In this document: piece after piece, positions 4,184-48,522 of the stretch | Layout of the letters: every line of letters starts with the position of its first letter | How positions within the stretch are numbered: the first letter of the stretch is position 1 | Assembly (NCBI RefSeq): GCF_040436365.1 | Contig: NZ_AP026369.1 | Coordinates: 62,001-126,000 of the forward strand | Direction: 5' to 3' | Length of the DNA: 64,000 bases | DNA from: Hydrogenimonas sp. SS33 | Lineage (GTDB): Bacteria; Campylobacterota; Campylobacteria; Campylobacterales; Hydrogenimonadaceae | The notes under the pieces: generated by a model | The model's database searches: none | Seen by the model: the letters and a program-made list of their open reading frames with translations, nothing else | What the model was told of the DNA's origin: nothing | Position numbers and translations under genes: made by a program

Positions 4184-4194
4184 TAAGTTACCTA

Positions 4195-4317
4195 CTTACG
4201 TTACGCAAAAGGCGTAACGTCCTCTCGAAATCTACGATTTCGTAGCTTTAGGGGGGTGCAGGGGACGGCCGGTCCCCGCCAAAGCTTGGGCTTTGCTCAA
4301 GCTTTGCGTAACGTAAG
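4195..4317 (+). repeat. Multi-hairpin interspersed element, copy 1 (R1)
   Basis: A 123-bp element bounded by a perfect 15-bp inverted repeat (4195-4209 and 4303-4317). It contains four internal hairpins: arms ACGTTACGC/GCGTAACGT (4198-4206, 4212-4220), CTACGA/TCGTAG (4232-4245), GGGGAC/GTCCCC (4261-4266, 4272-4277) and AAAGCTTG/CAAGCTTT (4281-4288, 4298-4305). It starts 11 bp after the stop of the ThiF-like gene and ends before the ribosome binding site of the arginine kinase gene. Three related copies lie at 17448, 24985 and 48313. No T-run follows it, so it is not a classical terminator. Confidence 0.85.
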
Positions 4318-4345
4318 TGACCTGTATATTCTTCAAGGATTCCCC

Positions 4346-16298: not shown

Positions 16299-17449
16299 GT
16301 ACACTGATATTCGAACCGGCACGCTGCGTCCGCAGTGTCACCAAATTTTCCGACTGTACCAAATGTGTCGACATCTGCCCCGTCGATACGTTGACCATCG
16401 CCGAGAACAACCTGCCCGCCTTCGTCCCCTCGGCATGCGTCGACTGCGGCGGCTGCATGGGGGTCTGCCCGACGGAGAGTTTCAAACTCAAGGATTTCGA
16501 TGCCACCGAATTCTTCTTCGAATTCGCCGCGGAACCCTCGCCGCTCATCTCCTGCCGCGTCAATGTCCCCTGCATCATGGCGCTCTCCACCGAGCACCTG
16601 ATATCGCTGGCACTTGTGAAAGAGAAACCGGTCATACTCGATATCGGCCACTGCCACACCTGCCCCTACAAAGAGCCTCTTTACGCCAACATCCTCAAAA
16701 GCGTGGAGGAGGCGAACTACCTGTTGGAGGCGATCGAGAGCGGCAAAAAGATCGAACTACAAGAGATCGCGGCGAGAGAGCAGGGGGTCGGTGACGATGT
16801 GGATCAGAACGACCGGCGCGCCTTTCTGGAACGCTTGTCCCTGAAAGGGGCGGTCAAGTCGAAAGCCCAGTTCGAAGAGCTGCTCGAAGCGACCAGCGAC
16901 GAGATGCGCGAACATGCGGTCGGCCTGGCCGAAATCGCACGCATTAGGCAAAAGGAGCTTCCCGACAAGCGGAAGATCCTCTTCACCGCCCTCAAAAGGG
17001 CGCCAAGGCCCGAACGGTACCATACGATCGCCGAAGAGGATATCTCCTTCGCCTCCCAGAAATTCATCGACATGGAGACCTGCACCAACTGCCAGATGTG
17101 CTACCGCATCTGCCCGACGGGGGCGCTCAGCAGCGACCCGAAGAACAGCAAAATCTTTTTCGACGCGATGATGTGTGTCAAATGCCGGGCCTGCCACGAC
17201 ACCTGCGAGCCCGACAGTCTGAAGCTGCAGCCCACCTTCGAATTGAAGGAGTTTTTTGAGCCGACCCAGCGGCTTCTGGCGGCATTCAGGCTGATCCGCT
17301 GTGACGAATGCGGCATCCACTTCACCTCCCTGCACGGAGAGCGGGTCTGCCCCCGGTGCGCCGTGGAGGAGGAAGAGGCCCTGGAACTCTGGGGCCTCGA
17401 GGAGAAACCCGACGGCTCCATCTGGTTTATCGAAGAGGAGGAGAAATAA
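16295..17449 (+). CDS. Multi-cluster ferredoxin-like protein with C-terminal zinc ribbon
   Basis: A 384-residue cytoplasmic protein (no signal peptide). It has a pair of [4Fe-4S] motifs at the N-terminus (CTKCVDICPVDTL, CVDCGGCMGVCPTES) and another pair in the C-terminal half (CTNCQMCYRICPTGA, CVKCRACHDTCEPDS). A CDEC...CPRC ribbon lies near the end. The middle contains a CHTC site and helices. It overlaps the chaperone gene by four bases, so a role in assembling or feeding electrons to the molybdoenzyme is likely. Similar Fe-S proteins accompany formate dehydrogenase and related clusters in Campylobacterota. The exact reaction is unknown. Confidence 0.75.
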   Translation: MSTLIFEPARCVRSVTKFSDCTKCVDICPVDTLTIAENNLPAFVPSACVDCGGCMGVCPTESFKLKDFDATEFFFEFAAEPSPLISCRVNVPCIMALSTEHLISLALVKEKPVILDIGHCHTCPYKEPLYANILKSVEEANYLLEAIESGKKIELQEIAAREQGVGDDVDQNDRRAFLERLSLKGAVKSKAQFEELLEATSDEMREHAVGLAEIARIRQKELPDKRKILFTALKRAPRPERYHTIAEEDISFASQKFIDMETCTNCQMCYRICPTGALSSDPKNSKIFFDAMMCVKCRACHDTCEPDSLKLQPTFELKEFFEPTQRLLAAFRLIRCDECGIHFTSLHGERVCPRCAVEEEEALELWGLEEKPDGSIWFIEEEEK

Positions 17450-17572
17450 CATTTCGCGAATGCGGAATGTTTTCTCGAAATCTTCGATTTCGAAGTTTTA
17501 GGGGAACCACAGAAACCCTTTGGGACGACCAGTCCCCGCCAAAATATGGGCTTCGCTCATATTTTGGTAAAA
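17448..17572 (+). repeat. Multi-hairpin interspersed element, copy 2 (R2)
   Basis: The most diverged copy of the family at 4195. Hairpin arms: AACATTTCGC/GCGGAATGTT (17448-17457, 17462-17471), CTTCGA/TCGAAG (17482-17495), GGGAC/GTCCC, and CAAAATATG/CATATTTTG (17540-17548, 17558-17566). The first arm begins inside the TAA stop codon of the ferredoxin-like gene. Arm sequences differ from copy 1, but each stem remains paired. It lies 22 bp upstream of the next start. Confidence 0.8.
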
Positions 17573-23999: not shown

Positions 24000-25006
24000 A
24001 GTTCGTCACTGGTCATTGGTCATTGGTCATTGGTTTTTTTCTTCGCACGAAAAATTGGCTTTGGACCCTTTTGCTGTTCGCCGGTGTGGGATATGGGGCC
24101 GATTTTCGCTATTCGCTTACGCTGGACCGTCACGAGGCGTGGGTCAAAGCGCCGATTGTGCTGCATTTTAACGTGGAACAGACCGATGCGTCAAAGGTGA
24201 TGTTTTTCGATTTCAAGCCGCTGGAAGAGGGGAGTTTCAAAGCGATCCGCCTCGACAAGAAGGTCGACAACGCCTACCACCACCGAAAGGCGCAGTTTAC
24301 CTATCTGCTCTTCGGGCTGAAACCCGGAACCGTGACGCTGAAGTTCGACCTGCTGGTGCGGCGCACCAACGAGGCGACCATCGCCCAGAGCACCACCGGC
24401 GGCCGCTACAACGTGAAAGATGTGGAGACTCAGGACCGCCATGAACCGATCCCCCCGGAGACCCTCCGCCTCAAGCCGCTGCCGGCGCCGGTGGACCTGG
24501 TGGGCGATTTCACGCTCCAAAGCCGTGTCAGCGCCCAAACGACCCGTGCCGGCCGCCCCGTCTATCTGACGATCCGCCTCAAAGGGGTCGGCTACCCGCC
24601 CCGGAAACGGTTGATCCGCGTCGAGGTTCCGGGGGTCGACATGTTCGAAGACACGCCGAAGGTGTCGCTGCGCTACGGCCCCAAAGGGGCGCTCTACGAT
24701 GCCACCTACACCTATGCCATCAAAGCGGACCGTGACTTCTTGCTCCCCTCTTTGAGGCTGAAAGCCTTTTCTCCCGCCGGCGGGAAGCTGTACGAGCTGA
24801 AGAGCGACGAAATCGCCGTTCAGGTCCTGGCACCGGAGAAGCCACGCAAAGCGCCCCCTCCCGAACCGAAGAAGGAGCGTTCCCCTGCAACAGAGTGGTG
24901 GCCGCAAGTGAAAAGTATTCTTTTTTACGGAGCGCTTTTTTTGATAGGATATATCAGCGGAACCCTGTGGCTCAAAATCCGAATGGACGTTACGAGAAAA
25001 ACGTAA
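23996..25006 (+). CDS. BatD-like protein 2 (tandem paralogue)
   Basis: 336 residues from ATG 23996, overlapping the batD1 stop. It aligns by eye with BatD1 over most of its length (YSLTLDRHEAWVKAPIVLHF against YTLTLDPPRAMAKTPILLTV; VEQTDASKVMFFDFKPL against IEQTDPSKVLFFDFKPV). It ends in a proline-rich linker and one helix (SILFYGALFLIGYISGTLWL). The N-terminal GHWSLVIG is encoded by GGTCATT repeats ahead of the true hydrophobic segment. The last codons and TAA stop are inside hairpin element R3. A tandem duplication of batD is the simplest origin. Confidence 0.78.
   Translation: MKFVTGHWSLVIGFFLRTKNWLWTLLLFAGVGYGADFRYSLTLDRHEAWVKAPIVLHFNVEQTDASKVMFFDFKPLEEGSFKAIRLDKKVDNAYHHRKAQFTYLLFGLKPGTVTLKFDLLVRRTNEATIAQSTTGGRYNVKDVETQDRHEPIPPETLRLKPLPAPVDLVGDFTLQSRVSAQTTRAGRPVYLTIRLKGVGYPPRKRLIRVEVPGVDMFEDTPKVSLRYGPKGALYDATYTYAIKADRDFLLPSLRLKAFSPAGGKLYELKSDEIAVQVLAPEKPRKAPPPEPKKERSPATEWWPQVKSILFYGALFLIGYISGTLWLKIRMDVTRKT
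24007..24033. repeat. GGTCATT heptamer array at the batD2 5' end
   Basis: Three and a half units of GGTCATT in the first codons of batD2, followed by a T7 run. The same unit occurs at 25512, 31820 and 59188. It encodes part of the signal region (GHWSLVIG). Confidence 0.75.
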
Positions 25007-25112
25007 CGTCCTCTCGAAATCTTTGATTTCGAAGCTTTAGGGGGGTGCAGGGGACACTTGTGTCCCCGCCAAAACAAGCGAAGCGTTCCCAAAGGGATGT
25101 TTTGCGTAACAT
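24985..25112 (+). repeat. Multi-hairpin interspersed element, copy 3 (R3)
   Basis: Hairpin arms: GGACGTTACG/CGTAACGTCC (24985-24994, 25002-25011), CTTTGA/TCGAAG (25021-25034), GGGGACAC/GTGTCCCC (25050-25067) and CAAAACA/TGTTTTG (25070-25076, 25098-25104). The first hairpin contains the last five codons and stop of batD2. The fourth stem has a longer loop than in copy 1. Confidence 0.82.
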
Positions 25113-25138
25113 AAAGATTGGGACAAGGAAGTGAGAGA

Positions 25139-48310: not shown

Positions 48311-48312
48311 CT

Positions 48313-48431
48313 GATGTTACGCAAAGCTTGAGCAAAGTCCAAGCTTTGGCGGGGACTGGCCGTTCCCTGCACCCCCCTAAAGCTACGAAATCGTAGATTT
48401 CGAGAGGACGTTACGCCTTTTGCGTAATGTC
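48313..48431 (-). repeat. Multi-hairpin interspersed element, copy 4 (R4), inverted
   Basis: Reverse-strand copy nearly identical to R1 at 4195. It keeps the CTACGA/TCGTAG stem, GGGAAC/GTCCCC (one mismatch) and CAAAGCTTG/CAAGCTTTG. It starts two bases after the ArnT-like stop, but is oriented opposite to that gene. It ends inside the leader of the next operon. Confidence 0.85.
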
Positions 48432-48522
48432 TGTTATTGAATTTTTCGATCCACTCTTCACACAATCTTCATTTTCCTCCTCTAAACTTCAAACCATGAA
48501 AATCCACATTGAAAGGATGGTG

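Follow-up and report, generated by a model that had tools for sequence, protein, structure and literature searches.

The window, a 64,000-nucleotide stretch of the Hydrogenimonas sp. SS33 genome (NZ_AP026369.1, positions 62,001 to 126,000), carries four copies of a MITE-like element that is short, noncoding and dispersed and has terminal inverted repeats, target duplications of fixed length and one empty orthologous site. The pairing of its hairpin core is kept by repeated compensatory changes over many genera of Campylobacterales, an indication that the single strand, once folded, is itself useful. We consider it probable that the element is a nonautonomous transposon moved in trans by a transposase and that its folded core is selected, probably as ssDNA or RNA, in the element's own propagation. 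The initial annotation of this DNA had recognized four structured copies but missed their mobile nature, which is apparent from the terminal inverted repeats and the 7-bp target duplication.

Copies and distribution of the element

A covariance model derived from element copies from across the order returned the four copies, R1 to R4, and nothing else in the window. R1 (4195 to 4317, forward strand) is full length with both ends and was also recovered by BLAST. R2 (17448 to 17572, forward strand; E value of 9e-7) is a long middle variant without recognizable terminal repeats, while R3 (24985 to 25115, forward strand; E value of 4e-12) has decayed ends and an enlarged hairpin 4. R4 (48311 to 48433, reverse strand) is inverted, retains both ends and is flanked by a 7-bp duplication identical at 6 of 7 positions. 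These are the places at which the initial annotation had put its copies, with the right end of R3 now recognizable to 25115 and R4 delimited by its ends. That annotation had also anticipated more copies, both elsewhere in the genome and among related Campylobacterota, and these exist: the covariance model finds 87 copies in the closed 2.25-Mb genome of Hydrogenimonas sp. SS33, 77 and 10 in the closed genomes of two congeners (G002 and G016, respectively) and matches in 39 of 160 sampled genomes of the order Campylobacterales, distributed over 18 of 63 genera. BLAST against the own genome gave at least 40 scored matches (best E value of about 1e-31), and these and the 87 model copies place the family well outside chance expectation. 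When 84,980 species genomes were scanned by pattern, at least 120 loci matched, and among the matches listed, all are titled Campylobacterota or its genera; the genera named on related loci are Hydrogenimonas, Sulfurimonas, Sulfurovum, Sulfuricurvum and Sulfurospirillum.

The element is about 116 to 145 bp long (about 123 bp for copies in the own genome) and has no coding capacity. G001 and G006 contain copies arrayed in tandem at a spacing of about 120 bp, and in G002 some copies form close pairs. No copies were found in the phages and viral contigs searched, and one plasmid-borne copy is present in Sulfuricurvum kujiense. The suggestion that no named family has this layout agrees with Rfam 15, which gave no element matches above the gathering threshold in the window and nothing plausible in a permissive search of related copies. 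A literature search for a repeat of this type in Campylobacterota retrieved no paper. We also rejected a hammerhead ribozyme on inspection, the CUGAUG in the ends being fortuitous and GAAA not following the right stem.

Ends, target duplications and mobility

The element is bounded by inverted repeats of 12 to 15 bp, CTGAYGTTACGCA...TGCGTAACATCAG. The end pattern CTGAYGTTACGCA / TGCGTAACATCAG gave 57 + 64 matches, against 1 + 2 for a reversed-pattern control, and alignment of copies with their flanks revealed sharp boundaries (left, CTGAYGTTACGCAAA; right, TTTGCGTAACATCAG). In R1, the left terminal repeat CTTACGTTACGC (4195 to 4206, forward strand) is the perfect complement of the right one, GCGTAACGTAAG (4306 to 4317, forward strand). 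The alternative fold proposed in the initial annotation, which joins the left arm to the distal right end, corresponds to the terminal inverted repeat of the transposon; it is perfect over 12 bp in R1, near perfect in R4, decayed in R3 and lacking in R2.

The flanks of the element are duplicated over a fixed length. For 35 copies from the own genome, identity between the left and right flanks is 0.70 at 7 bp and at most 0.38 at all other lengths from 2 to 12 bp, with 10 perfect 7-mers; among 59 copies from other genomes, it again peaks at 7 bp, with 16 perfect 7-mers against about 0.6 expected. R1 has a probable duplication of this kind, with TTACCTA at 4188 to 4194 on the left and TGACCTG at 4318 to 4324 on the right (5 of 7 positions identical). 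The AT-rich consensus of the duplication is TTAWTAA, and a TAA, TAG or TGA triplet is present in 41 of the 47 clear 7-bp cases. Since the target site usually contains a stop triplet, copies come to adjoin stop codons, with the stop being regenerated. At G000:1999583 in the own genome, the element comes after ...TTCTAA, and in seven relatives, it is absent just past the orthologous stop codon; in G004, the orthologous locus of this one checked site keeps both flanks and lacks the element. Mobility thus explains why copies are dispersed, why a long-range fold is available as an alternative and why copies lie next to stop codons. Location within 11 bp after a stop, which the initial annotation gave for all copies, is correct for those in the window but does not extend to the family, whose flanking genes have all four orientations and lie at many distances.

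Derivatives with altered ends were also observed. One copy in the own genome (L023, G000:997936) has a different hairpin (GAGCCTTCCG..CGGAAGGCTC) in place of the left end, leaving a core without the usual ends. Separately, solo-end derivatives of 40 to 50 bp consist of two ends flanking a single hairpin (L203, 5250 to 5300; L166, 5149 to 5187; L232).

Fold and covariation of the core

The layout shared across the order comprises an optional hairpin 1, hairpin 2, the linker AGCTTTAGGGGG, hairpin 3 and a hairpin 4 that reaches into the right end. Hairpin 1 is formed by the left end paired with its own 3' arm. The core spans hairpins 2, 3 and 4, with the linker AGCUUUAGGGGG between hairpins 2 and 3. 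Hairpin 2 has the foot CTC...G.AG, and hairpin 3 has the form GYARGGAC..GTCCCTGC. Conservation is highest in the unpaired linker AGCTTTAGGGGG, which is near invariant across the order. In R1, all on the forward strand, hairpin 1, which offers the left terminal repeat another pairing partner, occupies 4199 to 4219, and it is followed by hairpin 2 (TCTC..G.AG) at 4223 to 4245, the invariant linker CTTTAGGGGG at 4246 to 4255, hairpin 3 at 4258 to 4279 and hairpin 4 at 4280 to 4306; this copy folds with a z of -7.2. The register CTACGA/TCGTAG originally assigned to hairpin 2 is visible in the own-genome alignment; across the order, the stem with support is C-GAAA..C / G..TTTC-G, which overlaps it.

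The proposal, made from the window copies, that a secondary structure is conserved in RNA or ssDNA is supported by pair counts, compensatory branches and arm exchanges, and covarying pairs persist with more copies aligned. In a structure-blind alignment of 51 sequences, some with the first residues of hairpin 2 cropped, 94.1% of stem cells are paired, against 39.5 to 48.2% in slid controls; double-change cells number 160 against 47.4 in shuffles, with a covariation score of 0.353 against 0.139, and 0 of 500 shuffles matched the observed value on any measure. Tree-based counting for hairpin 4 identified seven consecutive pairs with 6 to 11 independent double compensatory branches each and one further pair with 4, the maximum under the null being 4. 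When arms are exchanged between copies, pairing in hairpins 2, 3 and 4 drops by many standard deviations: own arms pair at 5.23 of 6 positions in hairpin 2, at 5.77 of 6 in hairpin 3 and at 7.65 of 8 in hairpin 4, against 4.03, 5.39 and 4.78, respectively, after swapping. The effect is weaker for hairpin 1 (6.77 against 6.32 of 8), and a 116-bp form found in several lineages lacks it; in G001 and G006, hairpin 1 with its own arm pairs better than the two element ends do together. Column-pair testing, applied first to a structure-blind alignment, yielded only 4 significant pairs, owing to the variable length and misalignment of hairpin 2. A variant at L062 of G017 and at L077, present in several tandem copies, has an insert of about 70 to 90 bp within hairpin 3, and this insert seems structured in its own right.

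A second element with the same ends and diverged relatives of the core

The own genome harbors a second, unrelated MITE family of 269 bp (239 bp in one case) at 10 loci (L079 to L088; G000:334174, 456262, 951526, 1281100, 1369246, 1397058, 1556501, 1912471, 1983219 and 2053409). The first 13 bases at both of its ends are the same as those of the hairpin element, within a long terminal repeat, CTGATGTTACGCAGTATATRCC..., and it is flanked by 7-bp duplications, 8 of 10 of which are perfect. It lacks the CTTTAGGGGG core, yet it is very hairpin rich (fold z of -13). Ends matching this element occur in G002, G004, G012 and G016. That it shares the ends and the duplication length without the core shows that the mobile unit is defined by the ends alone, and its movement without the core indicates that the core is not strictly needed in transposition.

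Weaker matches to the covariance model recur in further families of the order. Diverged copies in closed genomes of 1.6 to 1.8 Mb have the linker CTTTAGGTGGGTCA, a hairpin 3 of the form AAGGGAG..CTCCCT and the right end GCGAAGTTAAAA. In G089, three of them lie immediately upstream of 16S rRNA genes (L262, confirmed by Rfam; L266; and L270), and in G135, one lies immediately upstream of an rrn tRNA gene (L258). Core and ends thereby look like separable modules, the distant homology resting on covariance model E values near 1e-6 and on the layout.

Search for the mobilizing enzyme

Fixed-length duplications together with inverted ends point to a DDE-type transposase, which would move the element in trans. 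No autonomous element or gene enclosed by these ends was found in a nonexhaustive search of the own genome, the genus and five further genomes. Candidates for an autonomous partner, defined as inverted end pairs 300 to 4,000 bp apart at all loci and in five genomes, proved to be neighboring separate copies or chance pairs. The transposase domain search of the own genome covered Y1_Tnp and DDE_Tnp_1; an IS4/IS5-type DDE_Tnp_1 helper (PF01609) is absent from that genome.

The same search identified a RAYT-like Y1_Tnp gene, present once and encoding 257 aa (L049, 1090 to 1863; G000:1781201-1781503), the product of which has a C-terminal helix-turn-helix-like part and which is not flanked by copies or repeats. 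Similar single genes are present in about half of the genus. Its presence, the hairpin-rich nature of the element and the GTAG that many genera have at the hairpin 2 foot could be taken to indicate a REP/RAYT- or IS200/IS605-type element, moved as ssDNA by a hairpin-recognizing Y1 HUH transposase. We regard this as very improbable, given that Y1 chemistry is at odds with 7-bp duplications and terminal inverted repeats, that no copies flank the own Y1 gene and that the GTAG lies at the 3' foot and not at the 5' end. Further, Y1_Tnp is absent from the copy-rich G001 and G012 and from the closed G016, whereas G009 and G005 have Y1 genes and no element; on the basis of this distribution and the 7-bp duplications, we rejected a RAYT/REP origin.

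Genomic context and the role of the core

Simple open reading frame calling places 2 of about 100 copies inside open reading frames, and the rest are intergenic, in all gene arrangements and at many distances. Pooled copies between tandem genes are co-directional with them in 40 cases and opposite in 40, and divergent and convergent gaps are also used. No Rho-independent terminator (GC stem and T run) was found in R1 to R4, and no replication-strand bias was seen among the copies, which are evenly spread over both chromosome strands. On the AGCTTTAGGGGG strand, stem G.U outnumbers A.C by 138:19 in own-genome copies and by 100:26 across the order, an excess that favors folding of the AGCTTTAGGGGG-carrying strand; across the order, it falls to 36:25 without two fixed wobble columns, and because the excess rests largely on these two positions, we treat it as suggestive only.

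Several explanations of the conserved core were weighed against these data. One is that the transcribed element is a cis-regulatory RNA module whose fold in the mRNA would determine how transcripts of adjacent genes are terminated, processed or stabilized, a role proposed for Correia/NEMIS; compensatory changes, G.U tolerance on one strand, the nearly exclusive intergenic location and the diverged copies immediately upstream of 16S rRNA or rrn tRNA genes are all compatible with it. Nevertheless, the lack of orientation preference, the use of divergent and convergent places and the want of a U tract or terminator pattern in R1 to R4 do not favor a cis role on neighboring transcripts, and copy numbers and insertion sites are lineage specific, which implies no conserved gene partner. 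We hence hold such regulation to be unlikely, and the same absence of a U tract and of orientation preference lends no support to the earlier hint that the element might end transcripts. Still less probable, in our estimation, is a purely mutational origin of the covariation. Template-switch correction of quasi-palindromes is a known mutational process for inverted repeats that would change both arms without any function, and the stems are indeed near-perfect palindromes. Against such an origin, wobbles persist across the order (U.G in 28 of 51 sequences at columns 37/58 and G.U in 36 of 51 at columns 70/79), the most conserved part is the unpaired AGCTTTAGGGGG linker, and the three hairpins retain their order, size and linker from genus to genus.

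A role of the core in propagation of the element would fit better than cis-regulation of neighboring genes. The core may be retained because the AGCTTTAGGGGG-carrying strand must fold when single stranded. It would probably do so in the form of ssDNA during replication or transposition, or in that of a small RNA aiding propagation of the element. A counterpoint to transposition via ssDNA is that the replication-strand bias it would predict is missing. More tentatively, and with a distinctly lower probability than the trans-mobilized transposon, the three-hairpin core might be a persisting structured ssDNA/RNA parasite module that predates the present ends and has travelled through the order on two or more different sets of ends; its target, in trans or in cis, would then be a transposase that stands alone or has been domesticated and that does not lie between such ends.

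Relationship to known bacterial repeats

The bcr1-type repeats of the Bacillus cereus group are 100 to 400 bp long and intergenic, with up to 130 copies and mobile features; bcr1 to bcr3 are MITE-like, and other bcr families have conserved RNA structures (PMC6542083, PMC3446304). The present element resembles bcr1 in copy number, mobility and intergenic location, whereas bcr1 has unrelated ends (TTTAT motif) and is confined to one species group, in contrast to an order-wide distribution, 7-bp TTAWTAA duplications and a compensatory core. Other MITE-like repeats with terminal repeats, duplications and stable stems, including Correia/NEMIS, RUP, ERIC and CIR, have been reviewed (PMC2229807). Correia/NEMIS, RUP and ERIC share with our element a length of 100 to 200 bp, terminal inverted repeats, target duplications and stable stem-loops, but their fold is a long stem between the 5' and 3' ends and most end in 5'TA3' (PMC2229807), unlike the three separate hairpins on a conserved linker, the CTGA ends and the 7-bp duplication described here. 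CIR elements of Caulobacter and Brucella are likewise intergenic, with linker-joined arms and a structure kept between genera; they differ in their GANTC hallmark and in that no terminal inverted repeats are reported for them (PMC2229807), whereas our element has terminal repeats, duplications and another linker. REP/REPIN sequences with RAYT are also dispersed intergenic hairpins with many copies and a transposase in trans, but they are 20- to 40-bp GTAG- or CGTC-tagged palindromes served by a Y1 transposase (PMC3733652, PMC6006769), in contrast to 7-bp duplications and no Y1 link. Sulfurovum NBC37-1 has such GTAG- and CGTC-tagged REPs, as 20- to 40-bp palindromes, which are not the present composite (PMC3733652). 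As far as their published descriptions go, none of the compared repeats has the layout, ends or taxonomic range seen here, and the element is best read as a member of an already known class, the structured bacterial MITEs.

Bacterial MITEs are generally regarded as requiring no more than their ends, with interiors that are expected to decay. Here, the interior is the best-conserved part across an order, its pairing being maintained by repeated double changes, and an element with the same ends but without that interior resides in the same genome, a contrast that separates the needs of the transposase from the function of the core. In Sulfurimonas, Sulfurovum, Sulfuricurvum, Hydrogenimonas and their relatives, the element also amounts to a large repeat family that lacks annotation and can disturb the annotation of operons and small RNAs.
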